Shown: positions 2,238-61,673 of the stretch, one piece after another
Position numbering within the stretch: the stretch's first letter is position 1
Layout: every line of letters begins with the position of its first letter
DNA from: Diplolepis rosae
Taxonomy: Eukaryota; Arthropoda; Insecta; Hymenoptera; Diplolepididae
Direction of reading: 5' to 3'
NCBI GenBank assembly: GCA_030998225.1
Contig: JAPYXD010000753.1
Location: 1,364,001 to 1,428,000, forward strand
Length of the DNA: 64,000 bases
Notes under the pieces: generated by a model
Database searches by the model: none
What the model was told of the DNA's origin: nothing
What the model saw: the letters and a program-made list of their open reading frames with translations, nothing else
Position numbers and translations under genes: made by a program

Positions 2238-5200
2238 TTAAAATGGGTTATTCGCTGTGAAATTTCGACTATTTTTATTTGCTGATAGCTGTCTGAGAAT
2301 ATTGCGTATTCCGCATAGATAGCTTACATCTAAATATTTAGAGACTTCAGTTAATTCATTATACTCTGTAATGAGGATTCCTAAAAGTTCATTATGGACG
2401 AATAGAAGATCACCTATTTTTTCCTGAAAAGTCACAAGATATCAATTTTGAGCTTTATCTTGAAAAATACAAATTCAGGTTGATTGGGCTATTGATTTTA
2501 TTCTTAATAGTAGTACTTTTAACAAAATGCAATACCCGAGTGGAAATAAATTCAGGATCCAGTCGGGAGTACTACGATAATGTCACGGGGATCCGATCGG
2601 GAACGAGTCAGTTTGTTAACCAAAAAAACCTACCCGATTCACGTCAGATCCCAAATGTTACTTAAACGTGACTTTCCAGAATTTCCTTATTTACAAATCC
2701 CTGCTGGATCCCGATTGGTACCAAACCTGTAGCAGTGACAACCCGGGATTTTTCCACACGGGTATTAGTTGTAAGATCATTACTTTATAATTCACAAATT
2801 GCTTTAACTCGATACACTTACATACGGTCTCTGAAATTCTCTTTGTACGTAGATAAACCTATCATGTATTTCGTTAGTCATACCACATGTTATATCTGGT
2901 GTTGGCTGGAAAAAAATATTAGACATATTTGTAATATGATTGGTACGCAAATATGACAATTTTGTAAACTGTCCGCAAAACTACTAATTGAATACGAGGT
3001 CTGTCCGGAAAGTATCGGGCCTACCTTTATATCTCCGCGCTGGCGTTATTCTTCATCATCGGGCGGGTGGCATCCTCCAAAGTAATTCCCTCTTGATTGA
3101 ATAAAACGGTTCCAGCGATGTTTACACTTCTCAAAACAGTCCTGGAACTCACTTTTAGGGATGGCCTCGAGTACGCTCGTCGCATTATTTTCAACCGTCG
3201 TTTTGTCATCGAATCGCTGTCCTTTGAGTGGTTTTTTGAGTTTTGGAAAGAGCCAAAAGTCACGGGGGGCTATGTCGGGACTGTACGGAGGTTGTCGAAG
3301 CAATGCGATACTGTGTTTACTCAGAAACTGCTGCACAAGATCAGTGTGTCCAGATTTGACACGCGAACGTTACGCACACAACGCCAACAGCAGTACGTAC
3401 GTGAGAATGGTTGCGCGCGCAGCGTAGTGTGTCTGCTGTTCGCAGTGGTTCTCTGAGTTTTCTCTGGTTTTCTCTCTTTGACAAGGAGCCTTCAACCAGA
3501 GAAAACTCAGAGAACCACTGCGAACAGCAGACACACTACGCTGCGCGCGAAACCATTCTCACGTACGTACTGCTGTTGGCGTTGTGTGCGCAACGTTCGC
3601 GTGTCAAATCTGGACACACTGCACAAGATTCGATGAATGAGCTGGCGCGTTATCGTGGTGAAGAAGCCAGCCACCGCACACACGCGAGTCATTCCTAAAA
3701 TTTTGTTCAAAATTTTCCAAACAGTAGTTTTCGGTATTCCGAGATCATTTTCTAGTTCACGAACAGCTAATCGACGATCACGTTCAATCGCAAGTCGCAC
3801 CCGCTCAATATTATCCAATTTTTTTGTCGTCGAAGGTCGGCCAGAACGAGAATCACTATCAACAGAAGTGCGGCCTCCTTTGAAACGATTATACCACTCT
3901 TTTATTCGTGTTTTGCTCATACACTCATTTCCAAACGCCTTCTGCATCATCTGAATAGTTTCCACACTCGTTTTTCCGAGTTGAAAACAAAATTTGATGC
4001 AAATTCGTTGATCTTGTTTTTCAGTCATTTTTAACAATCACAAAATCCGCCGAACTCCAAAATAGCTTTGTAGACAAAGACACGCTGCGCATGAAATATA
4101 CGTTTGGCAGATGTCAGCAAGCCACCGATAGGTTCGTGAGGCTTTACTGTTCACGTTTATGCCCCGCAGAGGTCGCTCGAACACTATGTCGCGGAGATAT
4201 AAAGGTTGGCCCGATACTTTCCGGACAGACCTCGTATAAGAGAATAAGCTGATTCTATCAGTGAAGTAGTTGATTGAGAAATTTTGTCCCGCCCAAGAAC
4301 AATGTGTTACAAAGACACATTATTCAGATTCATTTGACGCGAATGATTCTTAATTGTCCCCGAAAGCTAAGTGAATGATACTATTTATTGCATAAAGGCG
4401 GGATGAAAAATTTATTTAAAATGTTGATTTTCTTCAAAAAGCTTCAATCAGCTGCTTTTTGCGTAGGTAAAATTTAGTATTCATGTGCAATTACTTCGTA
4501 ATTGTGTGTCCGAAAGTCAAACGGCTCTTGTGCAAATGCATTGACATCGAGATTTAATTTTGTATTATTATCGAAAAATGGTACATATTTAATGCTTTCC
4601 AGGTCTAGTTCTTCTTCAGTTTCAATGCTCTCCACTATCTGCAAAGGAATTCAGCTTTTTAAAAATTATATGTGTATGTCCAAATAAACCACAACTTTTA
4701 GATGTTATAATAAGAAATAAACTGCAACTAATTCAATGCGTCAAATTTCATAACGAACATTTAAAAACTTCAAATAAATTTGAAATTTTATTGTTTTATA
4801 TAATGTACAACACAGAAGGAATATAGAAAAAATAGGTGTTATCTTTACTAGAATCTAGATACTAGATAACTAGTTATTTTTTAGCCTAGAATTTTGGTAA
4901 AGATAACATCAAGTTCTATGTACACTGAGAGAAGAGTTTGGTTGTCCTATCCATTTTGTTGGTCGTCGCAGACACGAGTTGCTTGCTGTAACTATCCCGA
5001 ATATCGAGGGGTCTTTCACTCAGGTATCACTGAGTTTTTAAAATTCGAAATTGATTCCGAATTGAGCTCTAGTTATGGAACTCAACGATTTAATGCATGG
5101 TTCAGTGGAATAAAAAAAAACAAATTGGACTCATAGAGAATTGAGGCAATAAGTTGAAACAGTATGGAATCAGCGAATTCATCGAGAATCACTCGGATCA

Positions 5201-11685: not shown

Positions 11686-12078
11686 TTAAATAATACTATG
11701 GTAAATTTGATTAATATTCATCATTTCAGTCTTTAAATTTATGGAAATATTAAAATTTTTATTGATATAAATTGATTCAATAATTTTTCTTTTATATTTA
11801 TTGTATTCTCTAGCTAAAATTTTAACGTTATTAAAGTCAAAGAAATGATTATAATCCCAAGAATGTCGAGATAAGCCTGTATTCAAATTTTCAAGTCTAC
11901 AATCTCTCTTATGCTCATAAATTCTATTTTTTAATCTCCTGCCAGTTTCACCAATATAGACTTTATCACATCCAGTGCATTTTATAAGGTAAACTACATT
12001 GGATAGATTTTCAATTTTATCACAATCTTTATTGTTTTTTAACAATTTTCCCAGTGTAGTTATTATTGAAATAGACAT
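11686..12078 (-). CDS. GIY-YIG endonuclease domain of Penelope-like element 1 (frame-shifted from the RT)
   Basis: Reads LSNVVYLIKCTGCDKVYIGE, then TGRRLKNRIYEHK, the GIY-YIG variant with the CxxC pair typical of Penelope-like C-termini. This domain nicks target DNA for insertion. It overlaps the RT frame by about 50 bp, and the real domain starts around 12050. The initial Met of the separate frame is probably not used. Confidence 0.82.
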   Translation of the reverse strand: MSISIITTLGKLLKNNKDCDKIENLSNVVYLIKCTGCDKVYIGETGRRLKNRIYEHKRDCRLENLNTGLSRHSWDYNHFFDFNNVKILAREYNKYKRKIIESIYINKNFNISINLKTEMMNINQIYHSII

Positions 12079-14131
12079 TGATATGGAATTTCTTTAACCC
12101 TCTCCTAAGTCTTTCAGAAAGACCTTGGATGTAAGGTAAAGTAACTTTAATTTCATTTTTTTTGTATTTTTCTAACCATTTCAATTTCTTTTTATCTTTA
12201 GTTGAAGTATTATATATTTCATGAACACGTTCCTTAATGACACTCTCTATCAACATCAGTGGATAACTATTCAATTGTAAAATAACTTTGATTTCATCTA
12301 AATTTTCTTTTCTATATTTGATGTCGCTTAATTTAATACATCTATCAACTAAACCTTTAATTAACCCAACCTTCTGACTAAATAAATGATGAGATTCATA
12401 ATTTAAATAGCAACCAGACGAAGTAGGTTTTTTAAACCAGTTTGTAATTAAAGAACCATCAATATTTTTGATAATCTTTAGTTCTAAGAAGTTTAAGGTA
12501 TTATTTTCTTCATTTTCAAGTGTAAATTTAATAGATTGCTCGATATTGTTAAAAACATCGAAAAACTCTGTAATTTTATCAGTTGGGATAATTGTAAGTA
12601 TATCATCCACATAACGTTTGTAGAGAATAGGTTTAAAAGATAATTTTAATAACGCTCGTTTTTCTACATCTTCCATGACCAAGTTTGATACTAAAGGTGA
12701 TAATGGAGAGCCCATTGGACAACCTGACATCTGTTTATAAAATTTATTATTAAATGAAAAAACTGTGTTATTAAATACAGTTCTAATAGCAATTAAAATC
12801 TCATTTTTAGAAATCCTTGTTAAATTCTTATGTAAATTTAATTTCTCTTCAATACAATCTAAAGCTAAATCTAGAGGTATGTTATCAAATAAAGAGACCA
12901 CATCTAAAGATAGTAATGAATGAGTTGAAGGTACTTTAATATTAGTAATTATATCTTTTAGTTCCCAACTATTTTTGATAAATGAATCAGTATTTCCGGA
13001 AACCGGTTTTAAGATATTAGACAAATATTTAGCCAAATTATAAGTTGGTGATCCAATTGAGGAAACAATCAGTCTCCAGTTCAAACCTGGTTTGTGCACC
13101 TTAGGGAGCGCATAAGCTTTAGCCACTACACTATTATGAGATTTTAATTTATAAGCGACAAACTCATTTATATATCTTTTATTTTCCCATCTAGAAACAA
13201 TGTCATTGCATTTATTTTCAACTGTTGGAACTAAATCAGTTTTGACATTCTTGTATAAATTATTATTTAACAAATTATTTTCTAAAGTCTGATTATAATC
13301 ATTTCTATTTGCTGCCACCATAATATTACCTTTATCAGCTTTAACAAATATCAAATCATTGTGATTCTTTTGAAATTTCACCAAAGTATCAGCAATTTGA
13401 TTATTATTTTTAAACTTATTATTTCTGTTATGGTTCGAAATAATATCAGTTACCGTGCGTCTAATTTTTAACTTATCCTCATCATGGTCTATGTTTTTTA
13501 TGCAGTTTTCAATGCTAGCCACAATATTATTTACCGGAATTTTGTTACTATTATAAGGAATACCAAATTTGTTTCCCAACGCTAAAGATTCAGCAATTTC
13601 ATACGGAATTTGTACATTTGAAACATTTTTAAAACATTTATTAATTCTAAATTGGCTAAGATTAGTATTTCTATTCGAATTTGTATTTCTCAACAATTGA
13701 AATTTCTTGATGCAATTATTTCTTATACTAAATTTCAAATTATGCAACATCATATCTTGTGATTGAAAAAAATTAAATAAGGAATCTTCATTGATATTTC
13801 TAAACAAACGATATTTCAAATAATTAGAATTTTGACCTAATTCATGAATGTTTTCAACAGTATTGTTAATTTCACAATTTAGCAATTTTTTCTGAGTATT
13901 TACAATAGTATTCTGAAATTTAAATGTAACTTTATAATGTAAATTATGAATTTCAAATTTGTTACTAAAATTCTTAATATGTGCTGGAACAAGGCCTTCT
14001 TTCCGACATTTAATAAGAAATGTACGTTGTTCCTTTAAAACGACAAGACGTCTTTGGAATTTCATCCAATTTGTGATGTCACATCTTACGTGGTCTCCAT
14101 ATTTCATCGAAATATATGCAAGATAGCCCAT
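12029..14131 (-). CDS. Penelope-like reverse transcriptase
   Basis: 700-aa ORF starting at 14131. The N-terminal part has RTFLIKCRKEGLVPAHI, as in many Penelope-like proteins. The RT core shows KADKGN (about residue 265), SLDVVSLFDNIP (motif A), CPMGSPLSPLVSNLVMEDVE (motif B) and the catalytic RYVDD (motif C). It copies RNA into DNA at the insertion target. The frame runs out near 12050, just before the endonuclease, which continues in another frame. One small indel therefore probably separates the two domains of a single protein. The long open frame suggests a young copy. Confidence 0.9.
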   Translation of the reverse strand: MGYLAYISMKYGDHVRCDITNWMKFQRRLVVLKEQRTFLIKCRKEGLVPAHIKNFSNKFEIHNLHYKVTFKFQNTIVNTQKKLLNCEINNTVENIHELGQNSNYLKYRLFRNINEDSLFNFFQSQDMMLHNLKFSIRNNCIKKFQLLRNTNSNRNTNLSQFRINKCFKNVSNVQIPYEIAESLALGNKFGIPYNSNKIPVNNIVASIENCIKNIDHDEDKLKIRRTVTDIISNHNRNNKFKNNNQIADTLVKFQKNHNDLIFVKADKGNIMVAANRNDYNQTLENNLLNNNLYKNVKTDLVPTVENKCNDIVSRWENKRYINEFVAYKLKSHNSVVAKAYALPKVHKPGLNWRLIVSSIGSPTYNLAKYLSNILKPVSGNTDSFIKNSWELKDIITNIKVPSTHSLLSLDVVSLFDNIPLDLALDCIEEKLNLHKNLTRISKNEILIAIRTVFNNTVFSFNNKFYKQMSGCPMGSPLSPLVSNLVMEDVEKRALLKLSFKPILYKRYVDDILTIIPTDKITEFFDVFNNIEQSIKFTLENEENNTLNFLELKIIKNIDGSLITNWFKKPTSSGCYLNYESHHLFSQKVGLIKGLVDRCIKLSDIKYRKENLDEIKVILQLNSYPLMLIESVIKERVHEIYNTSTKDKKKLKWLEKYKKNEIKVTLPYIQGLSERLRRGLKKFHINVYFNNNYTGKIVKKQ

Positions 14132-14670
14132 TATTCCAGAACGTTACTGACCTTTAATGTTATTAATTATTAATTTTATTTAATTGACCGTAAGACCGAC
14201 TAAACAATTCCTGTATGACAAAATTTTATTGTGTACAAACAAATATCCTTACCAATAATTGCAATCTTTCTTCCAGGTGAAAAATAATTAAAGAATATTT
14301 GATATTGATGGAGCTTTTTAATTCATGTTTTTAAAGTATTTGACTGATTAAACGGGGATTCGGGATATATCCTTAATTTTACCTTTTCGTCATCTAAAGT
14401 TTATTTGACGAAGTTTATAAGAGAATCTAATTCCACAGATAATCGGAAGAATTAAACAAATAAACACATGTTTAAATTATGTTTCTTGTGATATTTGATG
14501 TACAGAATGATAAAAACGATTAAATTAATCTGTCAAATTTTTTTCATTTATATTCTCCATAAATAATCCTAATCTGCAAAGTTGCAATTGAATAAATTAT
14601 CTTCTCCTCGCGTTTCATGATTAGTTTTAAACAATCATTTAAGTGCAGCAATATTCACGAATATATATGT

Positions 14671-15860
14671 TACGGCGGGGTAAAAGAAGAGGCCTGGTGG
14701 GGTGGGTGGTGATTGTTGGTTGGTGCGAAACGGTGGTCCTCGTTACTGAAACCGGGCAACCCAGATAGCGCCTGGTTAGCGCCCGGATTCAGTCAGGCAC
14801 GTTGCAGGGCGGCTCTTCTTCCTCTACTTCCCTTCCGCTTCTCTTCTTTTGCTTCTTCTTCTTCTTCTTCTTCTTCTTGATTCGCAGCGCGTGAATGGGC
14901 CATGGTTAAAGGTTGGGAGAGTAGGTAAGAGAGAGGGAGATGGAAGACCGCTGAGGATCTTCCAGAGGAGAAGACCTATAGAGATCTTCTGGCTAGGGTG
15001 AGAGATGGAAGACCGTTGTCGATCTTCCAGGGGAGAAGACCTAGGCAGATCTTCTGGCGAGGGAGAGAGATGGAAGACCGCTGTCTATCTTCCAGGGGAG
15101 AAGACCTAGGCAGATCTTCTGGCGAGGGAGAGAGATGGAAGACCGTTGGCGATCTTCCAGGGGAGAAGACCTAGGCAGATCTTCTGGCGAGGGAGAGAGA
15201 TGGAAGACCGTTGACGATCTTCCAGGGGAGAAGACCTAGGCAGATCTTCTGGCGAGGGAGAGAGATGGAAGACCGCTGTCGATCTTCCAGGGGAGAAGAC
15301 CTAGAGAGATCTTCTGGCGAAAGGTAGGGGTTGAAGACCCGGAGGATCTTCAGGCGAGGACTTACCAGGGTTAGAATGATGGTGGTGGCAGCAGAACTCA
15401 GCTTCTTCACAAGTGACTTTATTGCCCAGAGGTTGGGAGCGTAGGCGAGACCTACGCCCCGAATGAATCTGCCAGCGAAACGCGCCCTTTTATCTTGCTT
15501 CTCTCCCTTCGGTGGTTCTGTGGAAGGGGTCGATTTCCCCGATTTTCCTAGTACATTTTCCCTTGCTTGGACGTCTCTTGCACTTTCTAACTTTTTTCTT
15601 AGTTTTTTCTACATAGGGAGTCCCATTGCTGGGCCCTGGTAGTGGGAGAACGTAAGGGTTCTCTAGCCACTCCGTACAAGTGCAAAAGAGAGTACCGAGA
15701 ATCTCCAGTGGAGTGAGAGAGAACGCATGCACAGCGTGTGACTCTCCTCTATGCGCTGGTACTTGGTGCGAGTGCGAGAGAGCGCACCAAGGTATAGGAG
15801 AGACAAGACAATTTTCGTGATTGATTTTAGTCATCGGCTTCATTTAAGCCAAAACTAAAA
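14671..15860. other. GC-rich block, possibly an LTR or LTR fragment, containing a minisatellite
   Basis: Starts TGTTACGGCGGGGTAA, contains (CTT)9 at 14851-14879 and the 65-bp minisatellite. Its composition is unlike the surroundings. A TG start is LTR-like, but no matching end or target duplication was seen. An open frame on the minus strand (15843-15490, 117 aa) matches nothing I know. Confidence 0.35.
14941..15360. repeat. 65-bp minisatellite, six units plus a decayed seventh
   Basis: TGGAAGACCG recurs at 14941, 15006, 15071, 15136, 15201 and 15266, exactly 65 bp apart, and a decayed unit starts at 15331. Each unit holds two short hairpins (GGAAGACC/GATCTTCC and GAAGACCTAGG/GATCTTC). Units 2-6 differ at only a few bases. 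Confidence 0.93.
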
Positions 15861-22482: not shown

Positions 22483-24304
22483 TTAAAATCGGTTATTCAC
22501 CGTGAAGTTTCGATCTTCTTCATTTGCTGATAGCTGGTGGAGAATATTACGTATTCCGCATAGACATTCCACATCTAGATATTTATGGACTATAGTTGAT
22601 TCATCAAACTCTTCAATGAGGATTCCTATTAATTCATTCTGGAAGAATAGAAGATCACCTATTTTTTCCTGAAAAGTCACAAGATTTCATTTTTGAGCTA
22701 TATCTTGAAAAGTATAAGTACAGAATGATAAACCCATCAATTATATTGTTAATCGTATACCAGTTTCTGCCCATAATCCTGGCTGGAAAAAAATATTAGG
22801 TGTATTTGTAATACGATTGCTACGCGATTATGCCAATCCAAAATGATACTTTTTAATGCATAAAAACGGAATGAAAAACTCTTTGCATTTTTTTTTGCAA
22901 TTTTTGCATTTTGCGTAGGTAAAACTTAGTATTCATGTGCAATTACTATTCCTTGAAATGTCCGGAAATCAAACTCATCTTGTGAGTATAGTGTGATGTT
23001 GAGATGTAATATTTCATTTTTATCTATATTGGTACATATTTAACAGTTTCCAGGTCTAGTTTTCGTTCAGGTTCAATGCTCTCCACTATCTGCAAGGGAA
23101 TTCAACTTTTTTTAAATTATATGTGTATGTACAAATATACCACAACTTTCAGACGTTACAATAAGAAATAAACTGCAACTAATTCAATGCTTCAAATTTC
23201 ATAACAAATATATTTAAAAAATTTTATAAATTTGAAATTTTATTCTTTTATGTAATGTATAACACAGAAAGCATGTAGAAAAAATAGGTGTCATCTTCAC
23301 TCAGACTTTAGCGCAAAATGTTCATTTCAGTCTAGAACTTTAGTAAAGATAAGATTAAGTTCTATGTACACTGAAAAAAAGTTTGGTTGTCCCATCTAAT
23401 TTATTGGATGTCACAAACACGAGTTGCTTGCTGTAACTATCCCGAATAGTAACACTCTTTATTACGATCGTCTGGTTTTACTTAGCCAGAATTGGTTGTG
23501 TCAAACAATCAACTGGATGGGGCCTCTGAGTCCAACGAATTTAGAAACATTCTTCTAAAAAAAAAATGATTATTCCTCACCAGTAGCAAAGCAATGTCAT
23601 TTTCTACCTTCTTCAGTATTGTACTGGCTTTCAGCTCATTTTGGCGCAAATATATTAGGGGCTCTTTATTATTTCCTATAATTCTCTTGTGGACAAGGAC
23701 GCTTGCAGCACGCAAGCAGACGCCCATACCGACAATTTTAGTATCTTCCAGAATGTAAGCTATAGATAACCCAGCTGTAGTAAACCTTCCCTCCGGTACA
23801 TAATCGTAACCCTTTGCTGCTAATAGACTAAATAATGTCGAATTCACCTCTGCTGAAAACATATTCAAACAAATTGAGTTGGCAATAAAAACGGAACTCT
23901 GTCGATAAAATCATCTTTAAAGACATTAAAACTTTCTTATGTAAAGTGAAAATAAAGTTAGTGAAACAACTCTTTAAATTTTGATCCACTGTTTTTTTTC
24001 AGATTTTAATCCCCTAACAGTGTAACCATAGCATCTTAGCTAAGCTAATAAAATTTATAGTAGCTTCAACTAAAAATAATTAGTGCGAATGTATTAATTG
24101 TAATTATCCTAGAAATTTCTCTCAGTTTATGTTAGCATATTTTGCTTTTGGAATATTTATCAATTAATATCTGGTGAAAGGAAATGAGGTAGGATCATTT
24201 TTATTGGGAAATGATTGGATTGTGGATAATTGAAAACAGTAATTACCTTCAGAGTAAGCAGTGGATAAAAATGAAGAAAGTATTATAGCAGTCACGAGTT
24301 TCAT
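22483..24304 (-). pseudogene. Gene 2, broken copy of the serine protease homolog-like gene
   Basis: E1 24304-24247 and E2 23852-23581 are intact, with signal peptide MKLVTAIILSSFLSTAYSE and DIALLL kept. E3 (23089-22947) is 143 bp instead of 144: one base is missing near 23024, giving an immediate in-frame TAG after the YVPI motif. E4 (from 22782) has two extra bases and loses its 3' part and donor, because a deletion joins it directly to the intron before E5. E5 (22668-22483) is open and reads EKIGDLLFFQ at the former GDSGGPL loop. With two frameshifts and a lost donor the copy cannot encode the full protein. The E3 change alone could be an assembly error, but the E4 damage could not easily be one. 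Confidence 0.7.
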
Positions 24305-26902: not shown

Positions 26903-26929
26903 CCTATTCCTGAGAATGTCTCAGATATT

Positions 26930-28213
26930 TTGAGAATGGGTGAAGGGTTCAGTTCACAGTACATAAGAAAAAAGTCTAATCAGGTCATTGAGCTGATTAA
27001 GGACTTGGAATCTAACATTACAAAAATACCAGTGGATAATAGACAATCTTTCAGAAATTCATTCATTGAGATTTCACATCAATATATCCGCAAACAACAA
27101 CATATAAATGCTATCGATAAAAGTATTGCTAATAATATCACTTTATCAAATAAATTCCTACAGAAAAATAAAGACATTTTCGTTACTAAAGCTGATAAAG
27201 GTAACATCACGGTTCTCATGAATCATAGTGATTACATTGCAAAAATGGAAATTTTATTTAATGATATTAATAATTATAGACTTATCAATGATGATCCTAC
27301 CCTCAAACTCAAGAAACTTACACAAAAGATACTTAATGATTGGAGGCAAAGAGGATATTTGTGTAAAGATGTAAAAAAACATGAAATTAATAATGATAAC
27401 TCTAACTTAGCTAGAGCTTATGGCCTCCCTAAAATACACAAAGAAAATTATCCTCTCAGGATTATAGTTTCTGATATTAATTCCCCCACTTGCATATTAT
27501 CAAAATATCTCAAAACAATAATTACCAAATCCTTACCGACACCTAGTTCTAACATTAAAAATTCCTGGGAGTTCAAACAGAAAATTGAAAAATGTAATAT
27601 TCCACCGAATTATGTGCTACTTTCCCTTGATGTTACTTCTCTTTTTACTAATATTCCTAATGAGTTGGTCCTGATAGGCCTTGAAAAAAGATGGGAACTA
27701 ATTAAAAACAATACAAATATTCCAAAAAAATCCTTTTTAAATGCAGTTGAATTTATTCTTAATTCCACTTTTTTCAAATTTAATAATAAGTTCTATAATC
27801 AAGTCTCTGGCACTCCCATGGGTTCTTCTATCTCTCCTATCATAGCCGATTTGGTAATGGTGGATTTGGAAACAGGAATTTTAGGTTCTTTTGACTTCTT
27901 GATCCCTTGGTATTTTAGATATGTGGATGACACAATACTGTGCGTCCCTAAGGATAAAATAGACCTTGTTTTGTGTAAATTTAACTCTTATAATCCGAGA
28001 CTCCAATTTACTTATGAAATTGAGTCTAATAATGCTTTGAGCTTTCTAGATATTAAATTGATAAGAGTTGACAATGTTCGTATTGTGACCAATTGGTATG
28101 GAAAAAATACTTACTCTGGTAGGTTTTTAAATTTTTTGTCTTGCCACCCTTTTAACCAGAAAATTGCAGTTATTAAAAATTTGACGGATCGAGCCATCCT
28201 TTTGTCTCATTAA
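26930..28213 (+). pseudogene. Penelope-like element 2 reverse transcriptase
   Basis: Shows ADKGNITVL, ARAYGLPKIHKENYPLRIIV, SLDVTSLFTNIP (motif A), TPMGSSISPIIADLVM (motif B) and RYVDDTILCVPKDKI (motif C). It ends in an in-frame TAA (28211-28213) before the endonuclease. The core is complete, but flanking stops at both ends break the full protein. Only about 40-50% similar by eye to element 1, so a different lineage. Confidence 0.88.
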
Positions 28214-34032: not shown

Positions 34033-37000
34033 TTAAAATCGGTTATTCACCGTGAAGTTTCGATCTTCTTCATTTGCTGATAGCTGGTGGAGAATATTAC
34101 GTATTCCGCATAGACAGGCCACATTTAGATATTTAGAGACTTTAGTTGATTCATCAAACTCTTCCATGAGGATTCCCATCAATGTATTCTTGAAGAATAG
34201 AGGATCACCTATTTTTTCCTGAAAATTCACAAGATTTCAATTTTGGGCTTCACCTTGAAAATATAAATATAGATTGATTGAGCTTTTGAATTTATTTTTG
34301 ATGCTAGTACTTTTAAAAAAATGCGATACCCGAGTGGAAATAAAGTCAGGATCCGGTCGGGAGTACCACTATAATGTCACGAGGATCTGATCAGGAACTA
34401 GTCAGTTTGTTGATAAAAAAAATCTACCCGGTCTACGTCAGTACTCAAATATAGCACCTAGACATGACTTTCCTGAATTCCCTTATTTACAAATCTCTGC
34501 TGGATCCCGAATGCTACCCAGCCTGTAGCAATGCCAATTTGGGATATTTCCACACGGGTATTAGTTATGAGATCATTACTTAATAATACACAGATTGCTT
34601 CAACTCGATAACACTTACAGCATATCTTTTTTGGGGTGTTCTTACAATGATAAGCCCATCAATTATATCGTCAATCGTACCAGATTCTTCATATGGTCCT
34701 GGCTGGAAAAAAATATTAGGTGTATTTGTAATACGATTGGTACGCAAATATGCAGATTCTAGCAACTGTTTGGAAAATTATTCATATTTCAATATTTCCT
34801 GCGAAAAGTAGTTGATTGAGAAATATTTTACCGCCCAATAGCAATGCGTTGTTATAAAAACCGCAAAGTTGCACTTTCTTATTAGATCGAAAGGTTAATA
34901 CTTTCTGATGAGATCCAGGAAATACTAGAATACCTCAAGCAAAGTAAATAATACACTGAGAGAATCTAATCGTTAGGTTTTACCGAAATACTTCGGTAAA
35001 GCTGGGACAAAGAGACATTTCGAGGAGATTTCGCTTGTTCCTCGGTAAAATAAATTACGTGAATGCGTAATGAAAAAACATGATTATGTAATGAAAGACT
35101 GGAGATTATAACGCACATGTCAATAATAAATGCTGAAATAGTATAGTGAAAGTTCAACGTGGATTTCGTGAAAACTTTACATTAAATCTAGAAAAAGAGT
35201 GACGAAGAAACACGAGAAGCTTCAACATGAGCTCGGTAAAATTTCGTTCACTTTCGGTAAAACTCGGTCGAATTCGGAACTAGTGGAAAAGGAAAAAAAT
35301 ATATTATGTTATATTTCTCTTCAAACACTAAACTTTCTTTTACGTATCCATATTAACTTACAATGTCATATATATACACAATTATACATTTTTACACACA
35401 TTTATATAGAATGGTAAGTAACACATCGTTCAATAAGTCCCGGGGCTAACTAAGAAAACAACATTTGTTTTGCAAAATTCATTTTTATTTATCAATATAA
35501 TCACCTTCAAGTGCGATACAATCATTCCAACGCTTTTCTAACTTTTCAATACCATGCTTGTAAAATGATTTGTCCTTGGCAACAAAATGACCTTCAGTTT
35601 CAGCGATTACTTCCTCATTCGAGCCAAATCTTTTTCCCTGGGGCATCTTTTTGAAATCAGCAAAGAGCCAGTAGTCGCTGGGGGCTAGATCTGGAGAGTA
35701 TGGTGGGTGGGGAAGCAATTCGTAGCCTAATTCAGACAATTTTGCCATCGTTTTCATTGACTTATGGCACAGTGGATTGTCTTGATGAAAGATGATTTTT
35801 TTCTTTTTCATGTGCGGACGTTTTTTTGCGATTTCGTCCTTCAAACGCACCAATAACTCAATGTAATGGTCGCTGTTGATATATTTTCCCTTTTCAAGGT
35901 AGTCGATGTAAATTATACCGTGCGCATCCCAAAAAACTGACGCCATGACTTTGCCAGCTGACTGTTGCGTTTTCGGACGCTTCGGACGGCTTTCACCGGC
36001 TGCACGCCACTCAGCTGACTGCCGCTTCGACTCCGGAGTGAAATGATGGATCCATGTTTCGTCCATTGTCACATACCGACGCAAGAAATCCTGTTTATTG
36101 CGAGTAAACAATGACGAACAGCTCTCTGAATCGTCGACTCGTTGTTGCTTTTGTTCCATTGTGAGCAAACGCGGCACTCATTTGGAAAAGACCTTTTTCA
36201 TGTCCAATTTTTCGTTTAAAATCAAAGACGCACTTCCAGTTGATATGTTCACCATCTTAGCAATCTCACGGACTTTCAGTTTACGGTCGTCCATCACGAT
36301 TTTCAAAACTTGCTTAATATTGTATTTTCCGGAGTTACTGCTTCATTTGGCCTAGCTGAGCGTTCCGCATCATTTGTATCAGTGCGACCGCGTTTGAAAT
36401 CAGCATACCACCGGTAAATCGTTGTTTTCGACGGAGTACAGTCCAGATAACATTTTTCAAGTCATTATTAAGCTTGCACGGTATTTTTCCCCATTAAATA
36501 GCAATGTTTTATCAACACACGAAATTCGTTTTTGTCCATTTTGTACACAAATGCAAAAGTAGCGTCACTTTCACCACAGAAGCTTTACAGTTTATGGTCT
36601 GATTGACGTGAATGTCAGACACGTGTCATTTAAAGGTTAGTTCTTTTGAAAACGAAGTGGATTTGATATTACTAACGCCATCTGTGGGTTAGTCCCGGGA
36701 CTTATTGAACATGTGTTACATGTAGAAGTAAATATTTTAAAAACCTGAAACAGAGAAAAATTATGTTAGAAATTCAAAGCTGCTGGGATCTGGGAATTGA
36801 ACTCGAGTCTCCACCGTAACAGTCGAGTGTCTAAGCCATTCTGCGGCGGGAACCTATACTCGATTTTTACGTAGAATTTTGGCTCACTTGAAAGTCCAGT
36901 GATTTTCTAAACGCCTGTAGAACTCTGAAGTGTTATTTATTTTTCGTGAACAGAAATATTTGGGTCCTTGAATAATGAATAAAGGATTGTAAATAAAGAT

Positions 37001-40000: not shown

Positions 40001-42616
40001 AAGACCAGAAGTTCTATGAGTGTGGAATCATGAAGTTACCACACGGAGAAAAAAAAACTGTTGAATCAACAGATGCCATCTGCTGGAATAGGGACAGCAG
40101 ATTTTTTTTGTAATATTTACAGATTTTTCTGTTGGATTCACAGATTGTTTGTAAACTCAACAGATGAACCTGTAAAATCTACAGACATGTCTCTTAGAAT
40201 TACGGATTTCTCTTTTTTCTTGAAATCCGCAATTTTAACAGATATGTCTGTAGATTTTACAGGTTCATCTGTTGAGTTTACAAACAATCTGTGAATCCAA
40301 CAGAAACATCTGTAAATATTACAAAAAAAATCTGCTATCCCTATTCCAGCAGATGACATCTGTTGATTCAACAGTTTTTTTTCTCCGTGCAGAAAGAGGG
40401 CAAAAGGTCATTGAACAAAATTTAAAATATATCATGGATATATCATATCATTATATCATTATATCATATATCATTGTATTTAAAAAAGTGTTTGATTTGT
40501 ATGAAAAAATCGTCAATTACTTCTGAGACTATTTGTGAAGAAAAAATTATACTCATACATGGTGTTGATACTACATTAAATATTTTTTATACCTATTGTG
40601 CAGCACTATATCGATTGATTATATTTATTTTATAATACTGCTATAAAATTACTATACATGTTTTATGAAAAATAGGGATAGCAGGTCCCAAGTACGAATT
40701 GCCGAAGCTGATAATACGGCATAATATTGGCCTAATCTCCGCAGCCAACATTTGGCTATTGTTATTGGGTCAGTGTCGCCGTTTGAATAGGTCAAGTGCC
40801 GGGCTGACGATGGCGGTCTTTGTCGACGGTTTAAATTTATCGATCCTCAGCCAAATCTTGGCCCAGTATCGGCCCCATACCAAGCCCATTGTCACTTTTA
40901 CTATTGCATCCAATTGCGAAAGCAGAAGAGCCAGAGTCCAGCCCATGGATTGCACATTACTGGGCCATGTGTCACTTTCACTACGGCAAAACATTCTGGA
41001 AGTGAGAAAACCAGAAAAACCAGAAGAAACAACCCAAGTGCGAATTGGCGAAAGTGATAATACGGCACAATATTGGCCCAATCTCGGCAGCCAAGAGTCG
41101 GCCATTGTTATTGGGCCAGTGTCACTGTTTGCATCGGTCAAATGCTGGGCCGACGACGGCGGCCTTTTTCGACTGTTTAAATTTACCGACCTTCAGCCGA
41201 AACTTGGCCCAGTATCGGCCCTATACCAAGCCGATTGTCATTTTTACTATGGCATCCAGTTCTGAAAGTAGAAGAGCCAGAGACGGGCTCATGGACGGCA
41301 CATTACTGGGCCATGTGTCACTTTTACCACGGCAAACCATCCTGGAAGTGAGAAAACCAGAGTTCGGCACAGCATTGGCCCGTTGCTGTGCCAAAAACAA
41401 GTGCTGGCGGCCAGAGTTTGGGCCAGAATTGGCCGCCAAGTGATTACCGGAGTTATCATTCCAGCAACGGCACGATATTGGCAGCCGATCTTCGGCAAAT
41501 TTTTGGCGATGCTGGGCCAGTGTTGGGCCGTATCTAATTTCGCACTTGGGAACAAGTTTTGGTGTCCAGAGTTTGATCCAGAATCGATTACCAAGTGCAT
41601 ACCGGAGTTATCATTACAGCAACGGCACGATATTGGCATCCGATATTCGGCAACATTTTTGCCGGTGCTGGGCCATTGTTATGGCGTATCTAACTTCACA
41701 CTAGGGGTATTTATCGAGTTTCCTGCAGAATTGGAAGTGCTTCAATTTAGCCGCCATGGCAGCTAACTAGATTCTAGATTTCAAATTAAATTTGAATAGA
41801 AAAAGTCACTTGTAAGACATTTTATTTGTTTAAATTCTGTTTTAGTCTAACAGTTTATACAATGCAAGTCAAAGTTTCACATAATCTGGTTATATAGATT
41901 CTTTAAGTATATTAATTTCTTGATTCGCTCGGTCACCTAGTCAAATTTTTTTTCGTGTAGATATTATTATTTTTTTATCAATAAGCGTGCGCCAATTCAG
42001 CCGCTTTTCTCCTACCTACTATTGTACTACTACTATTCGAAAATATTTAACGGTAACATAAACCATTAAATTTATAGGTCATGAACATGTGCCTTGATAA
42101 AGCAGATAGTGAAAAAGGTTTCAACTTAATAATTCTCATTGACGAAAATTTTTTTTATTAAAATATTAATATATTGTATAATTTTTCAATAAAATAATGA
42201 TAATTAGTAATAATATTAATATTTGGATACGCATAACGATTTTGAGAATGGCTTCTCACCAAAAACTGAAAAAAAGATTTACGCTCAAAAGTCAAACATT
42301 CTACATCTACAGTGAGAGAAATCTACATAGTGATTGTAACTAATATGTTCCCAATAATTGCTTTAACTAAAAGCAACGAAAAATTTGATAAGTTGGAATT
42401 TAGTAATTAAAATTACCTTATACATTTCTCTCAGTATAATATGTTAGCATATTTTCCTTTTGGAATATTTATAAATTAATATCTGGCGAAAGGAAATCAG
42501 GTAGGATAATTTTTATTGGGAAACAATTGGATCTTGAATAATTGAAAATAGTAATTACCTTTAGAGTAAGCAGTGGATATAAATGAAGAAAGTATTATAG
42601 CAGTCACAAGTTTCAT
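34033..42616 (-). CDS. Gene 3, intact five-exon secreted serine protease homolog-like protein
   Basis: Exons (minus): E1 42616-42559 (58 bp), E2 38785-38514 (272), E3 38025-37882 (144), E4 34702-34619 (84), E5 34218-34033 (186). All junctions are GT/AG with phases 1,0,0,0, giving 247 aa with no stop. E1 encodes MKLVTAIILSSFISTAYSK, predicted to be cleaved, so the protein should be secreted. Mature residues 20-110 cover the N-terminal barrel, with the His57 region VLVHKSI (no TAAHC) and the NDIALLL box near the end of E2. The substitute for GDSGGPL is EKIGDPLF, at the start of E5. P and L of that motif and the following LMGIL strand match S1 proteases, while Ser195 is Ile. There is no R-IVGG activation site. 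Introns hold a mariner, a self-nested repeat and a CACTG element. Role unknown; a ligand-binding or decoy effector is possible. Confidence 0.75.
35421..36716 (-). mobile_element. Full-length mariner (1296 bp) with decayed transposase
   Basis: Inverted ends ACACATCGTTCAATAAGTCC and complement, flanked by TA on both sides. On the minus strand the transposase begins MDKNEFRVLIKHCYLMGK (about 36540) but soon meets a stop. After further shifts it reads on from 36177 as 230 open residues with MDETWIHHF, IIFHQDNPLCHKS and YSPDLAPSDYWLF, so the DD34D triad is intact but the N-terminus is not. Confidence 0.9.
36790..36852 (-). repeat. tRNA-derived SINE head
   Basis: The minus strand has an A-box-like TGGCTTAGACACTCG and a B-box-like GAGTTCAATTCCC at tRNA spacing. 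No clean acceptor stem, so a SINE relic and not a tRNA gene. Confidence 0.5.
39209..40510 (+). mobile_element. Mariner relic interrupted by a palindromic element
   Basis: Plus strand: start AGTATGAAACCGGAATTTCC, then MSSFVPKNYDLRTALVFCYH (from 39373), RPNEVDDNQVKAIIESDRH, EEMLKITKSAIARHIQRLG, SLAKQIERSGQ, and after a deletion YNPDLAPSDYYLFRSLQNSL. It is full of stops and shifts. The C-terminal end is split by the palindrome at 40042-40389 and resumes at KVIEQN. In intron 1 of gene 3. Confidence 0.8.
40042..40389. mobile_element. Near-perfect palindromic element with CACGG termini
   Basis: 348 bp from CACGGAGAAAAAAAACTGTT to its complement. Removing it plus one CA restores the mariner reading TTACCAGAAAG, so the target duplication is CA (40040-40041, 40390-40391). 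The arms contain about a dozen copies of ACAGAT/ATCTGT. Because it is a palindrome both strands show almost the same 77-codon frame, which I do not regard as a gene. Confidence 0.85.
40687..41706. mobile_element. Self-nested element with CCCAAGTGCGAATT ends
   Basis: The outer ends are CCCAAGTACGAATT (40687) and its counterpart ending ACACTAGGG (41706). A second complete copy with ends CCCAAGTGCGAATT and AATTTCGCACTTGGG occupies 41033-41550, inserted in the middle of the first and flanked by AACAA. GC-rich, with repeated TTGGCC/GGGCCAG words. Long overlapping frames on both strands are by-products of low stop density. Confidence 0.75.
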
Positions 42617-49006: not shown

Positions 49007-49015
49007 TATTACCAC

Positions 49016-52000: not shown

Positions 52001-55000
52001 CCCAAACTGACGACAAAGCTTGCAAGAGAAAGGCTGGCACAAGTATTTCGCGTAACGGCTCGCCTAGTTTGGGGTAATGGTTCCCTCAAATTGGCAGAGC
52101 TGTTCGACCAAACAGAGGTCGCGCAGCTCTCCGTCAGTTCTACGTGTTGGGCGAGCGGATCCACTGAACTTTTCTCCGTGTAGACGTGGCTTTAACTCGA
52201 TAACACTTACATAGAGTCTTTGATAGTCTCTTTCTACAATGATAATCCCATCAATTATATTGTCAATCTTACAAAGTCCTATGTGTGGTTCTGGCTGGAA
52301 AAAATATTAGATATATTTGTAATATTATTGGTGCGCAAATATACAAATTCTAGCAACTGTATGCAAAACTACTCTTATTTTCTCAAAGAAGTACTTGATT
52401 GAGAAATATTTTCCTGCCCAAAAACAATACTTTATGAATAGAAGCAGAAAATAGAATACCTCAATTATGAAAAGTTCAAATTAAGGAAAAGTTATGAAGA
52501 CACATTACTCAGATTCATTTGACGCCAATGATTCTTAATTGACCGTCAAAGCAAAGTCAATGATACTTTTTAATGCATAAAAGCGGAATAAAAAATTTAT
52601 TTAAAATGTTGATTTTCTTTAATAAGCTGCAATCAGCTGCTTTTTGCGTAGGTAAAACTTAGTATTCATTAGTAATTACTTTTATATGATGTAGCTGAAA
52701 ATCAAACTCATATTGTGAGTATTGATAATAGTGATTGCAATGTAATTTTTCTTCGTTATAGTTAATTGGTATATGTTTAACAGTTTCCAGGTCTAGTTTT
52801 CTTCTAGGTTCAATGCTCTCCACTATCTGCAAGGGAATTTAACTTTTATTGAATTATATCTGTATGTACAAATATACCACAACTTTCAGTTGTTACAATA
52901 AGAAATAAACTGCAACTGATTCAATGCTTCAAATTTCATAACAAATATATAAAACAATTTTATAAATTTGAAATTTTATTCTATTATGTAATCTATAACA
53001 CAGAAAGCATGTAGAAAAAATAGGTGTTATCTTCACTCGGACTCTAGTGTAAAATGACTATTTCTCAGTCTAGAACTTTAGTAAAGATAACATTAAGTTC
53101 TATGTACACTGAGAAAAATGTTTGGTTTTCCCATCTAATTTATTGGTTTTGTTACAAACGCGAGTTGCTTGCGCCTCTGAGTCCAACAAATTACAATCAT
53201 TCTATTTAATAAAATTGATTATTTCTCACCAGTAGTAAAGCAATGTCATTTTCTATCTTCTTCAGTATTGTACTGGCTCTCAGCTCCTTATCACGAATAT
53301 ATATTATGGGCTCTACATTATTTCCTATAATACTCTTATGGACAAGGACGGTTGCAGCACGCATGCAGACGCCCATACCGACAATTTTAGTGCCTTCCAG
53401 AATGTAAACTATAGATTGCAGAGCTGTACCAAACTTATCCTCCGGTACATACTCGTAACCCTTTGCAGTTAATTGACTAAGTAATGTCGAATTCACCTCT
53501 GCTGAAGACACATTCAATCAAATTGAGTTGGCAATAAAAACGGAACTCTGTTGATAAAATCTTTTTTAAAGATATTAAAACTTTGTGATGTGAAGTGGAA
53601 ATAAAGTTAGTGAAAGAACTCTCTGAATTTCGATCAGCTGTTTTTTAAAAATTTTAATCCTCTGACAGTAAAAGTAATATCTCTACCGAAAATCCTCTTT
53701 CCATGCGTCATTTAAATAATGTCAAAAAGAGGCTTCCCAGCAACACTCTTAACTTAAATTGAATATTAATTTAAATTCGACACGGAGGAAAATAGATGAT
53801 CGTCGGTAGTATTTAACGATTACAGCTAATTGCATTTGACAGTGAAATATATGACATCCATCTCGGATATCCGGACGTAGCATTTGAAGACATGTAAAAG
53901 GTGATATTATCTGGATATAAGGTATTACATTTAAGTATCCAAAATTGATTATTATATAGTCTTTTTATATTGTACATGAAGTGACTAATCTATCAATAAT
54001 GCAAGTAATATGAAATATTAGAATATTGTATAATATTTCAATATAATAATGATAGTTAGTAATAATATTAATATTTGGTTTCACATAAAGATTTTGAGAT
54101 AGGCTTCTCACCAAAAACTGAAATTAAGATTTACGCTCAAAAGTCAAACATTCTACATTCTACAGTGAGAGAAATCTACATAGAGATTGTAACCAATACG
54201 TTCCAACTAATTGTTTTAAGTGAAAGCAATTAAAAATTTGATTAGTTGGAATTTAGTAATTAAAATTATTAAATAAATTTCTTTCAGTGTATGTTAGCAT
54301 ATTTTGCTTTTGGAATATTTATAAATTAATTTCAAATTAATTAGTTGAGTTTGAAATTTTCAACTAATTAATTTGAAATCATTTACAGCCGCAAGGCTGA
54401 GCCACTAGGCGATATAAGGAGATCTTCCTGTGGAGAAAGAGATGTCGGACGCCTGTGTAGCTCAGTGGTTAGAGCAGTCGACCGGCAATCGAAAGACCTG
54501 GGCTCGAATCCCAGCGCAGTCGAAAGCGTCATTTTTTCCACAGAAAGATTTTCAAATTCTTTAAATATTGAATTTATTTGCATTATTTGCGATATAAGAG
54601 TTTGAAATTGTCTACGAGGACACCTGTCGACAACGTATCCTATCTGATACGCGACTAGTGATCCTCCGATAATGTAGGCAGTGACAAAAATTTCAAACTC
54701 AACTAATTAATTTGAAATCATTTACAGCCGCAAGGCTGAGCCACTAGGCGATATAAGGAGATCTTCCTGTGGAGAAAGAGATGTCGGACGCCTGTGTAGC
54801 TCAGTGGTTAGAGCAGTCGACCGGCAATCGAAAGACCTGGGCTCGAATCCCAGCGCAGTCGAAAGCGTCATTTTTTCCACAGAAAGATTTTCAAATTCTT
54901 TAAATATTTATAAATTAATATCTGGCAAAAGGAAATGAGGTATAATAATTTTTATTGGAAAACAATTGAATCTTGAATAATTGAAATAGTAATTACCTTC

Positions 55001-57140: not shown

Positions 57141-57179
57141 GAATTCATATTCTGGTATTTAATATTTGTGTATGTGAAT

Positions 57180-57585: not shown

Positions 57586-57646
57586 ATAAGTATGTAAAAA
57601 TATACAAATCAGAAAATGGAGTAAATTTGAATTGCACAATATTATG

Positions 57647-57863
57647 TACAGTTTGTTCTAATAAAAAAAACATATCTCTGATATAAGGCCAATCCAACGA
57701 TTTATTTGATATGAACCGAGTTTATATAACCTGAAAAATTCATGTTAAATTTCAAGAAAAGGATTTCTTTCCAATAAACAAAGTTTGATTAATAAAAATT
57801 TATTGTTTGGCCATATATTAAAGATATGTTATCTTGTATTAAGCATAATGTTCTCTCACTGTG
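57647..57863. mobile_element. MITE in the 3' UTR of gene 5, one end eroded
   Basis: The inner sequence and the gene-proximal end (TTCTCTCACTG) match the other copies. The distal CACTGAGAGAA terminus is lost. Confidence 0.6.
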
Positions 57864-57870
57864 GTACCAC

Positions 57871-60800
57871 TTAAAATCGGTTATTCACTGTGAAATTTCG
57901 ATCTCCTTTTCTCGGTGATAGATGTTTGAGAATATTGCGTATTCCGTATAGACAGGCCACATCTAGATATTTAGAGGCTTTAGTTGATTCATCAAACTCT
58001 TCAATGAGGATTCCTATCAATTTATTCTGGAAGAATAGAGGATCACCTATTTTTTCCTGAAAAGTCACAAGATTTCAGTTTTGAATTTTATCTTGCAAAA
58101 TATAAATATAGATTGAATGAGCTTTTAAATTAATTTTTGATAATAGTACTTTTAAAAAAATGCGATACCCGAGTTGAAATAATTTCAGGATCGGGAACTA
58201 GACAATCTGTTGATGAAAAAAAAACTGCCCAGTTCAAGTCAGATCCCAAATTGCACCTAGACGTGACTTTTCTAAATTCCCTTATTTACACAGATTGCTT
58301 CAACTTGATAACACTTACATAGTATCTTTGTCTATCTCTTCCTACAACGATAAACCCATAAATTATATCGTCAATCGTACCAGCTCCTATGTGTGGTCCT
58401 GGCTGGAAAAAATATTAGATATATTTGTAATATTATTGGTGCGCAAATATACAAATTCTAGCAACTGTTTGCAAAACTACTCTTATTTCCTGAAAGAAAT
58501 ACTTGATTGAGAAATATTTTCCCGCCCAAAAACAATGTGTATATACCTCAATTATGAAAAGTTCAAATTAAAGAAAAGTTATATAGTCACATTACTCTGA
58601 TTCATTTGACGCGATTGATTCTTAATTGACCGTGAAAGCAAACTGAATGATACTTTTTAATACATGAAAGCGGAATGGAAAATTTATTTAAAATGTTGAT
58701 TTTCTTTAATAAGCTTCAATCAGCTGCTTTTTGCATAGGTAAAACTTAGTATTCATAAGCAATTACTTTTCCATGATGTAGCTGGAAATCAAACTCATCT
58801 TGTGAGTATAGTACGATATTGAGATGTAATTTTTCATTTTCATCGTAAATTGGTATATGTTTAACAGTTTCCAGGTCTAGATTTATTCCAGGTTCAATGC
58901 TCTCCACTATCTGCAAGGGAATTCAACTTTTATTGAATTATATCTGTATGTACAAATATACCACAACTTTCAGATGTTACAATAAGAAATAAACTGCAAC
59001 TGATTCCATGCTTCAAATTTCATGACAAATATATAAAACAATTTTATAATTTTGAAATTTTATTCTATTATGTAATCTATAACACAGAAAGCATGTAGAA
59101 AAAATAGGTGTTATCTTCACTCGGACTCTAGTGTAAAATGTCTATTTCTCGGCCTAGAACTTTAGTAAAGATAACATTAAGTTCTATGTACACTTAGAAA
59201 AAAATTTGCTTTTCCCATCTAATTTATTGGTTCCCGTGTAAATATTTTGTCATGGCGCTAGCCAGGCCCCAACCAGGAAAATCTGGGCCTCAACTTGGCT
59301 ATCGAGGCAGGACCAAACCGCAAATGAAACGCCTAACCCGACCAAAGCCTACCTCATGGCCCAGTTTGGTTCCAACTTGGCACCGTTCATTTTGTGAGTC
59401 TCAGCCATATTGAATCAGTGCCTCAGCCATATTAAAATTTTTTTTAATGTCTTTATCTAATCCTTCTAGAATAATTTCCAAGATTTAAAATGTAGTCCAA
59501 GTCATATATTTCAATATTATTAACAAATATTATGAATTGAATTTGATTTTGAGATTACACTGAAACAAAGTATAAACTTTTTAAAAAACTTTCAATGAAG
59601 TTCACGACAGCCCTTTTATTTATTAAAAATAAAAGTGTCAAACACGCAGTTGAAAAAAATCAAAAAATTTAACACTTTATTCCAACCTCTAAAATGACAG
59701 ATTCAAAGTCTAATCTACAAATTTGATTTACTTATTATCGTTTTCATTGCTTACTCTTTTTGCTTTAATTATCGCGCAATGCCTCCGGACTCGTCCAGTG
59801 CTCTTTATTTTGGGCATTTTAATTAGCACGCACAGAAATTAAATGCATACACTACCGAACATGATCGTTAATATCTTTGGCATAATTTAAAGAAGCCGGG
59901 TTCAAGACTGGAGGCGATCTAAAAACACAAGCACAACCAAAGTAGATGGCGCTGTAACCGGAACAACTATTGAACGAGGATCAAGGTTGGCTTCATGCCA
60001 CATCCAAGACATTCGCCATGTTGTAGCCAAATGATAATTTTCCAAGTTGGGGCCAAACTTATAATAGGGCAAAAATTTAACAATTTCCACACGGTTTGTT
60101 ACAAACACGAGTTGCTTGCGCCTCTGAGTACAACGAATTAGAACCATTCTTTTCAATAAAAAGGATTATTCCTCACCAGTAATAAAGCAATGTCATTTTC
60201 TATCTTCTTCAGTATTGTACTGGCTCTCAGCTCCTTATCACGAATATATATTATGGGCTCTACATTATTTCCTATAATACTCTTATGGACAAGGACGGTT
60301 GCAGCACGCAAGCAGACGCCCATACCGACAATTTTAGTGCCTTCCAGAATGTAAACTATAGATTGCAGAGCTGTACCAAACTTATCCTCCGGTACATACT
60401 CGTAACCCTTTGCAGTTAATTGACTAAGTAATGTCGAATTCACCTCTGCTGAAAACACATTCAAATAAATTGAGTTGACAATAAAAACGGAACTCTGCCG
60501 ATAAAATATTTTTTAAAGATATTAAAACTTCGTGATGTGAAGTGAAAATAAAGGTAGTGAAAGAACTCTCTTAATTTCGATCAGCTGTTTTTTTCTGATT
60601 TTAATCATTTAACAGTAAAAATAATATCTCTACCGAAAATCCTCTTTGCATGCGTCATTAAAATAATGTCAAAAAGAGACTCCCTAGCAACACTCTTAAC
60701 TTAAATTGAATATTAATTTAAATTCTACACGGAGGCAAATAGATGATCATTGGTAGTATTTAAGGGTTACAATTAATTGTATTTGACAGTGAAATATGTG

Positions 60801-61673
60801 AAATCCATTTCGGACATCCAGACGTAGCATCTGAAGACTTGTAAAAGGCCATTTGTTCCGTATTCAAAAGTAAATAAAAGGTTAATTAGAAATCGATTTT
60901 TAAAATATTGAAGCCCCCTGAAAAAATTGATGTGAAGAAAGGAAATAGTTCGTAAGAAATATATCTTAGTTCAAATAATGAGAAATAGTAGATAAGCAAC
61001 AAATCTGGCTTCTAAAATCAATTAAGTTAGAGCAGCAATATTCACTTTCACGATACCAGACGAACAAGTGACCACAATAAGAATTTTTATTCCCATTCCA
61101 TCTGAATCTTTCGTTAATTTTAAGGTATAAAAACTATACTCAATTTAGTGAAAAAAGTAATTTTTCTTATTTAGAAGTTTCCTGATAAATCCTGTTTTAA
61201 TCTAACAGTTTATACAATGTTATATTAGTATACTGTATAATATTTCAATAAAATAATGATAATTAGTAATAATATTAATATTTGGTTACACATAATGATT
61301 TTGAAATAGGCTTCTTACCACAAACTAACAATAAGATTTACGCTCGAAAGTCAAACATTCTACATTCGACAGTGAGAGAAATCTACATGGTGATTGTAAC
61401 TCATACGTTCCAACTAATTGTTTTAACTAAAATCAATAAACAATTTACTAATTTGTAATTTATTAATTAAAATTATTAAATAAATTTCTTTCAGTGTATG
61501 TTAGCATATTTTCCTTTTGGAATATTTATAAATTAATATCTGGCGGAAGGAAATGAGGTAGAATAATTTTTATTGGGAAACAATTGAATCTTGAATAATT
61601 GAAAATAGTAATTACCTTTAGAGTAAGCAGTGGATAAAAATGAAGAAAGTATTATAGCAGTCACAATTTTCAT
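57871..61673 (-). CDS. Gene 5, intact and most compact secreted serine protease homolog-like protein
   Basis: Exons (minus): E1 61673-61616, E2 60448-60177, E3 58910-58767, E4 58402-58319, E5 58056-57871. The frame is open throughout, 247 aa, with signal peptide MKIVTAIILSSFLSTAYSK. It gives the clearest S1 alignment: GTKIVGMGVCL over the CGGSII strand, VLVHKSI over TAAHC, NDIALLL over the Asp102 box, and EKIGDPLFFQNKLIGI over the GDSGGPL region. Ser195 is Ile, Asp194 is Lys and His57 is not His, while the Asp of DIALL remains. Only a few Cys are left (one in E2, one in E5). Intron 2 carries an insertion of about 860 bp (59232-60095). The 3'-UTR MITE is present with an eroded far end. Function unknown. 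Confidence 0.75.
59232..60095. mobile_element. Insertion in intron 2 of gene 5
   Basis: Gene 4 reads continuously TTTATTGGTTTTGTTACAAAC here. Gene 5 is interrupted after TATTGGTT by CCCGTGTAAATATTTTGTC and resumes after TTTCCACACGG with TTTGTTACAAAC. The inverted ends are short. GC-richer words such as GGCCCCAACCAGG and AGTTGGGGCCA occur near both ends. No ORF. Confidence 0.65.

Follow-up and report, generated by a model that had tools for sequence, protein, structure and literature searches.

A stretch of 64,000 nucleotides from the hymenopteran Diplolepis rosae (assembly GCA_030998225.1, contig JAPYXD010000753.1, here C425), termed the window below and corresponding to C425:1364001-1428000, carries several copies, all on its minus strand, of a repeated gene that appears to encode a secreted, protease-like protein. 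Five copies (g1 to g5) share a five-exon layout, in which the intact window copies have exons of 58, 272, 144 (147 in g4), 84 and 186 nucleotides and intron phases of 1, 0, 0 and 0. GT-AG junctions throughout, a single terminal stop and products of 247-248 amino acids characterize g1, g3, g4 and g5; the window thus holds four intact copies and not five, because g2 is broken in two exons, with a frameshift in exon 3 (from 23089) and a decayed exon 4 (from 22782) that lacks a recognised donor where one is expected. A sequence-only reading of the window had proposed five copies of this kind, a fragment and a separate orphan exon. The exon lengths and phases that it gave are those read in the spliced models, the proteins of g3, g4 and g5, assembled as it had suggested, come to 247, 248 and 247 amino acids in open frames, and the fragment was located (see the table). 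The count of five stands for the layout and falls to four for intact genes, and searches of the window gave nothing convincing as an orphan exon beyond the five copies and the fragment.

Table. Gene copies and other features of the window (positions are those of the window).
Feature	Position	Strand	Remarks
g1	exons 18741-18684, 10287-10016, 4638-4495, 2905-2822, 2423-2238	-	247 aa, open frame, GT-AG
g2, broken copy	24304..22483; open: exon 1 24304-24247, exon 2 23852-23581, exon 5 22668-22483	-
g3	exons 42616-42559, 38785-38514, 38025-37882, 34702-34619, 34218-34033	-	247 aa, open frame, GT-AG
Fragment of a further copy	44405-44025	-	part of exon 2, then the beginning of exon 3
g4	exons 55054-54997, 53501-53230, 52826-52680, 52294-52211, 49201-49016	-	248 aa, open frame, GT-AG
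g5	exons 61673-61616, 60448-60177, 58910-58767, 58402-58319, 58056-57871	-	247 aa, open frame, GT-AG
TATA box of g5	61722..61727	-	54 nt upstream of g5 ATG
tRNA-Ala (GGC), predicted	54450-54523 and 54789-54862	+	inside g4 intron 1
Penelope-like element	11689-14143	-	GIY-YIG and 704-aa reverse-transcriptase frame; g1 intron 1
Reverse-transcriptase frame	26903-28210	+
Mariner/Mos1-type pieces	3-341, 3049-4037, 35488-36177, 62594-63109		Transposase_1 in 35488-36177 and 62594-63109; HTH_48 in 3510-4037; other stretches judged by eye
Tandem repeats	14929-15320 and 40687-41361		65 bp x 6 and 346 bp x 2

The gene array and its wider family

The window is a slice of a larger array. Within the genome, which comprises 757,744,533 bases in 428 contigs, a DNA search with exon 5 gave 14 matches (all 14 candidates were scored), every one of them on the minus strand of C425 between 1.194 and 1.523 Mb; strongly diverged copies can escape detection by such a search. 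The array spans about 1.19-1.53 Mb of the contig, and the range of 2238..61673 first assigned to it was too small. In the 298 kb of the array region that were read, window included (1190-1230 and 1270-1528 kb), about 26 units were tallied; 11 of these are broken or partial, or extend past the edge of a fetched stretch. Fifteen intact five-exon copies were modelled by a search that demanded open frames and splice sites, all with AG and GT sites and one terminal stop, and their exons measure 55-58, 266-278, 132-147, 84-90 and 171-195 nucleotides. Protein identity among them ranges from 29% to 86%, with a median of 41%. Two more copies of exon 2, at 1239 and 1262 kb, were seen by exon-2 search outside the stretches read.

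That search, made across the genome with the 90-residue exon 2 of g5, returned 50 matches at E ≤ 1 (from 63 candidates), 23 of them in the array and 27 elsewhere. The outside matches cluster at C424:6.23-6.69 Mb (13), C425:5.61-5.68 Mb (5) and C425:1.78-1.81 Mb (3), and the remainder are found elsewhere on C424 (4), on C352 (1) and on C138 (1); E falls below 0.01 for 8 of the 27, and the others rest on clustering alone. The best seven, for which exon 2 alone was read, are all open across that exon; six begin with the pattern N[SL]TL..Q[LI].GK, and a GT donor follows in each of the six whose exon end was included. The array therefore probably represents a single branch within a wider gene superfamily.

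The promoter region is also shared. Among 18 copies that could be read (19 rows, from which gm6 was dropped since its row ran beyond the fetched stretch), 13 carry a TATA[AT]A element between -46 and -57 relative to the ATG; in all five window copies it lies at -54 to -56 and is followed by a CAGTGAG-like site. In g5 a TCAGT initiator-like site is found downstream of the TATA box, 27 nucleotides before the ATG.

Exon 2 of g4 and that of g5 (53230-53501 and 60177-60448) differ at 2 of 272 sites, while exons 3 and 4 of the two genes differ by 13% and 19%; the near identity of exon 2 may reflect local gene conversion. The introns of the window copies hold other elements, including a mariner-like element in g1 intron 3 and, on the strand opposite to g4, a local duplication with the two predicted tRNA-Ala genes.

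Constraint and divergence of the exons

The window copies match one another as repeat families of up to 300 nucleotides, and their reading frames appear to have been maintained. When neutral evolution was simulated along a tree relating the 15 copies, none of 200 runs ended with a stop-free copy, and 18 invariant columns are observed where the simulated mean is 0.3 and the maximum 2. Since the 15 copies were chosen as intact, the fair comparison is of 15 among about 26 units with an expectation of none. The repeat matches and the outcome of the simulation together exclude a chance origin.

Divergence of exons and introns, and the ratio of nonsynonymous to synonymous divergence (dN/dS), were compared in 9 of the 15 copies, that is, in 36 non-independent pairs. 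Exon 3 is more diverged than its upstream intron flank in 36/36 pairs and than its downstream flank in 33/36, and exon 4 in 33/36 and 24/36, respectively. The corresponding values are 0/36 and 0/36 for exon 1, 10/36 and 6/36 for exon 2, and 11/36 and 6/36 for exon 5. Pooled dN/dS is 0.48, 0.85, 1.16, 1.91 and 1.29 for exons 1 to 5, and for the whole protein the ratio exceeds 1 in 25 of the pairs, with a median of 1.09. When five disjoint pairs are summed, dN is greater than dS in exons 2-5, with p values of 0.10-0.23 that are not significant, and this tells against the interpretation developed below; diversifying selection is not established. Synonymous divergence of exon 3 is itself greater than that of the intron flanks, so that gene conversion or a bias in mutation may be at work there. 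What can safely be said is that the core is constrained and that exons 3-4 change fast.

Resemblance to proteases of the chymotrypsin clan

Profile comparison by hhalign points to a possible fold. The HtrA profile comprised 83 sequences (80 loci together with DegP, DegQ and DegS of E. coli K-12), against which a profile of the 15 array copies scored 29.0 with a probability of 14%; the null is 14.3 +/- 2.3, and none of 100 column shuffles, the best of which reached 22.4, did as well. Decoys scored 15.1 (the HtrA PDZ domain), 9.7 (frame-shifted HtrA) and 14.9 (reversed HtrA). N-terminal halves gave a score of 25.2 and a probability of 24%, equalled by 0 of 60 shuffles. When exon 2 was extended to a profile of 26 rows, made up of array copies, 4 additional pieces of the array and the 7 distant relatives, the score rose to 34.4, with a probability of 82% and an E-value of 1e-5, far from a null of 11.8 +/- 2.7 and with 0 of 80 shuffles as good. 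No match to the PDZ domain of HtrA was obtained with either the exon-2 profile (0.2%, with 28 of 80 shuffles as good, which is shuffle level) or the whole family (0.3%). HtrA, DegP, DegQ and DegS, the best profile match, share with the array the GxGV motif, the segment around His57 and, by hand count, a distance of about 30 residues from the His region to DIALL, where trypsin has 44. Unlike HtrA, the array family is without catalytic His and Ser, has a signal-peptide exon and is extremely diverged.

Trypsin-type (S1A) proteases are matched less well. The S1A profile combined 3 enzymes with 10 loci, the latter drawn from 40 of 202 plasmid records; with the addition of ten trypsin loci from the same genome (one of them a piece), the 15-copy profile scored 24.4 over 26 columns, with a probability of 5% and 0 of 60 shuffles as good, and the alignment places NDIALL and V.PI in register. 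The DIALL and V.PI segments are thus shared with the same-genome trypsins, of which the loci read keep the [IV].GG-type start (not in piece L129), cysteine pairs and GDSGG that the array family does not have. Two trypsin genes of the genome, L125 and L126 (C349:12900945 and 12904367), point in opposite directions within a trypsin cluster; their translated protease domains are the same, and so is their E-value. In the C-terminal half the register also agrees, though not significantly, with L.GI aligned to LIGI and GD.LF..L.GI to GGPLV..I.GI. Taken together, these comparisons indicate that the N-terminal half resembles the first barrel seen in proteases of the chymotrypsin (PA) clan, best with HtrA and weakly with trypsins.

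A number of results weigh against this assignment. By HMMER, neither single copies nor profiles gave a meaningful Pfam or PDB match, and searches of Pfam, PDB and a database of 5.8 billion proteins (of which the insect coverage was not gauged) with g5, four copies or ten copies gave none at E ≤ 10, apart from two PDB rows at chance level and a scatter of Pfam rows that each concern a single member; the scan of g5 returned 0 Pfam families, and no Pfam model, PF00089 included, matched more than one member when g5, four members or ten members were scanned. A search of viral contigs with two short patterns, the TLLSQLT stretch and the signal peptide, found no relative. Pairwise scores with bovine trypsin are those of shuffled sequences, being matched by 133, 152, 496 and 390 of 500 shuffles for g1, g3, g4 and g5, and among the PF00089 matches listed for the genome, for which 150 of 1172 candidates were scored, none lies in the array. 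Against S1A alone the 15-copy profile scored 22.1 over 6 columns only (NDIALL), with 1 of 100 shuffles as good, and the exon-2 set aligned over 7 columns only (probability 5%, 0 of 80 shuffles). For the C-terminal half, the match to HtrA falls short of significance (13 of 60 shuffles as good) and that to S1A is marginal (1 of 60). HtrA and S1A match each other at 97% by the same hhalign method, and what is claimed for the whole protein therefore stands on weaker ground than the claim for its N-terminal half. AlphaFold models of exon 2 (mean predicted local distance difference test score, pLDDT, 42.5; mostly helix) and of exon 5 (pLDDT 58.4; two helices) show no barrel, a lone exon being a poor test of one.

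The missing HMMER match, the non-significant C-terminal half, the absence of beta structure from the single-exon models and the few columns of the S1A match would also suit an unrelated, secreted, beta-rich family in which GxG, DIALL and GD.LF have converged on the pattern of PA proteases. Such convergence seems improbable when the HtrA match, which is correctly registered and well clear of the shuffled scores, rises from 24% to 82% with the inclusion of relatives, and when the same-genome trypsins lengthen the S1A alignment at DIALL and V.PI. Of the S1 chymotrypsin fold proposed from the window sequence, then, PA-clan kinship of the N-terminal half is retained (on the HtrA comparisons), and a recognisable S1A or CLIP-type relative is not (given PF00089 and the trypsin scores). 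Identity as a CLIP-type S1A protease was considered and rejected: Pfam scans returned no clip model, the cysteines are too few for a CLIP-domain homolog, and PF00089 does not match.

An active S1 triad (His57, Asp102 and Ser195) is not predicted. Alignment with HtrA puts a residue other than His at the His57 place, although a His stands two residues earlier (H74 of g5) in 14 of the 15 array copies and is lost from that position in 2 of the 7 distant relatives; Asp is kept at the Asp102 place in 13 of 15, and Ser is present at the GD.LF site in none. Because the His57 place is not His and the GD.LF site is without Ser in all 15 copies, the conclusion that these are dead proteases, if the fold is right, is well supported. 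The loss of His57 and Ser195 claimed at the outset is borne out in these terms, subject to the neighbouring His, and the lack of an IVGG activation site (none in the family) and of most cysteines (2-5 in the mature part) agrees with what was found. The replacement of Asp194 by Lys depends on the alignment, since the columns there vary, and was not upheld. C65 is invariant in the 15 copies and absent at that place from all 7 distant relatives and from the partial copy gm8.

Possible function of a putative secreted pseudoprotease family

Exon 1 is hydrophobic and signal-peptide-like in 15 of 15 models on inspection by eye, which makes export likely and agrees with the signal peptide and protein of about 247 residues described earlier. 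The interpretation favored here, with a probability of roughly 0.6, is that the array belongs to a lineage-specific superfamily of secreted, non-catalytic PA-fold pseudoproteases that act by binding, any part as effectors being left open. In type it would be a family of secreted dead serine protease homologs that the databases searched do not match. For the narrower proposition of a secreted, non-catalytic binding family with a PA fold the case is good, and the whole protein may be a double-barrel PA fold devoid of catalysis. In the mechanism envisaged, exon 1 would supply the signal peptide and four further exons a mature protein of about 225 residues, in which a conserved core of GxG, DIALL, GD.LF, Gly201 and Tyr216 would hold the scaffold, and exons 3-4 would form the fastest-varying surface on the second barrel. 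The exported protein could then stoichiometrically occupy a partner (a protease, its cofactor or some other surface), with local duplication supplying variants. Non-catalytic binding would be the most likely mechanism, as has been proposed, in the accounts given by the sources cited, for the dead venom protein Vn50 (PMC4035087) and for secreted P26 (PMC9663721). The partner could belong to a host, a prey animal, a plant, a mate or a microbe.

Parasitoid venom contains catalytically dead serine protease homologs, as described for Vn50 of Cotesia rubecula, which inhibits host melanization, and for homologs of Aphidius ervi (PMC4035087). The array family resembles these in its predicted secretion, lost triad and several paralogs, and it differs from Vn50, which bears a clip domain according to the title of a reference within the same article, in lacking a PF00089 match, in its few cysteines and HtrA-like spacing, and in forming a large multi-exon array. 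P26/poxin proteins of baculoviruses, moths and parasitoid wasps are described as secreted and PA-derived, as degrading cyclic GMP-AMP or blocking melanization, and as abundant in Microplitis venom (PMC9663721, PMC7688311). Similar size, a signal peptide, the protease-like N-terminal barrel attributed to P26/poxin and that venom abundance might place the array family among them, yet membership is very unlikely. The Ser motif of two amarillovirus poxins whose ends have been mapped is described as lying mid-protein, with 112 residues between it and the N-terminus and 115-116 between it and the C-terminus (PMC7688311), whereas the GD.LF site is 53-61 residues from the C-terminus in the 14 array copies measured (g4, where it was mis-located, is excluded). 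The His-Tyr-Lys set was not recognised by eye and the Lys of EK.GD is not conserved, but poxins are reported to vary there (PMC7688311). Baculo_p26 (PF04766) is absent from Pfam scans of g5, four members and ten members, and a genome search with PF04766 found nothing, its controls being likewise empty. The array family is thus set apart from P26/poxin by description, direct comparison with P26 sequences not having been made; the differing layout of the Ser site and the lack of a PF04766 match leave membership unsupported. In literature searches centred on venom protease homologs or on P26/poxin, no description of the array family was found.

A secreted effector role may be envisaged, and the chance that the family acts on another organism or host is put at slightly less than even. 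A more specific proposal, that a genome-wide superfamily on an HtrA-like PA scaffold supplies proteins that are injected or secreted to manipulate a host, an invention running in parallel with P26/poxin and the venom homologs, draws on surface exons that evolve faster than their own introns, on at least 15 intact array copies and on the distant clusters; it is rather unlikely in that full form. Dead protease homologs are common among seminal and immune proteins, and the array genes might instead encode the insect's own rapidly evolving secreted factors (of seminal fluid, gut, egg coat or immunity) that bind self or microbial partners. This too is a tentative reading: the signal-peptide-like exon, the duplication and the fast exons fit any arms race, and the sequence favors neither self nor foreign targets. 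Secreted salivary gland protein families of gall midges, with their conserved signal exon and introns, faster mature exons and clustered duplicates, may resemble the array family in these respects.

New secreted functions have arisen repeatedly from proteases that lost catalysis and kept their scaffold. A large superfamily that is represented within one genome at all stages of divergence and is missed by Pfam would show a protease fold in the course of becoming a binding scaffold. Standard annotation can miss whole effector-like families, and the genes of this array may encode a main component of an uncharacterised secretion.

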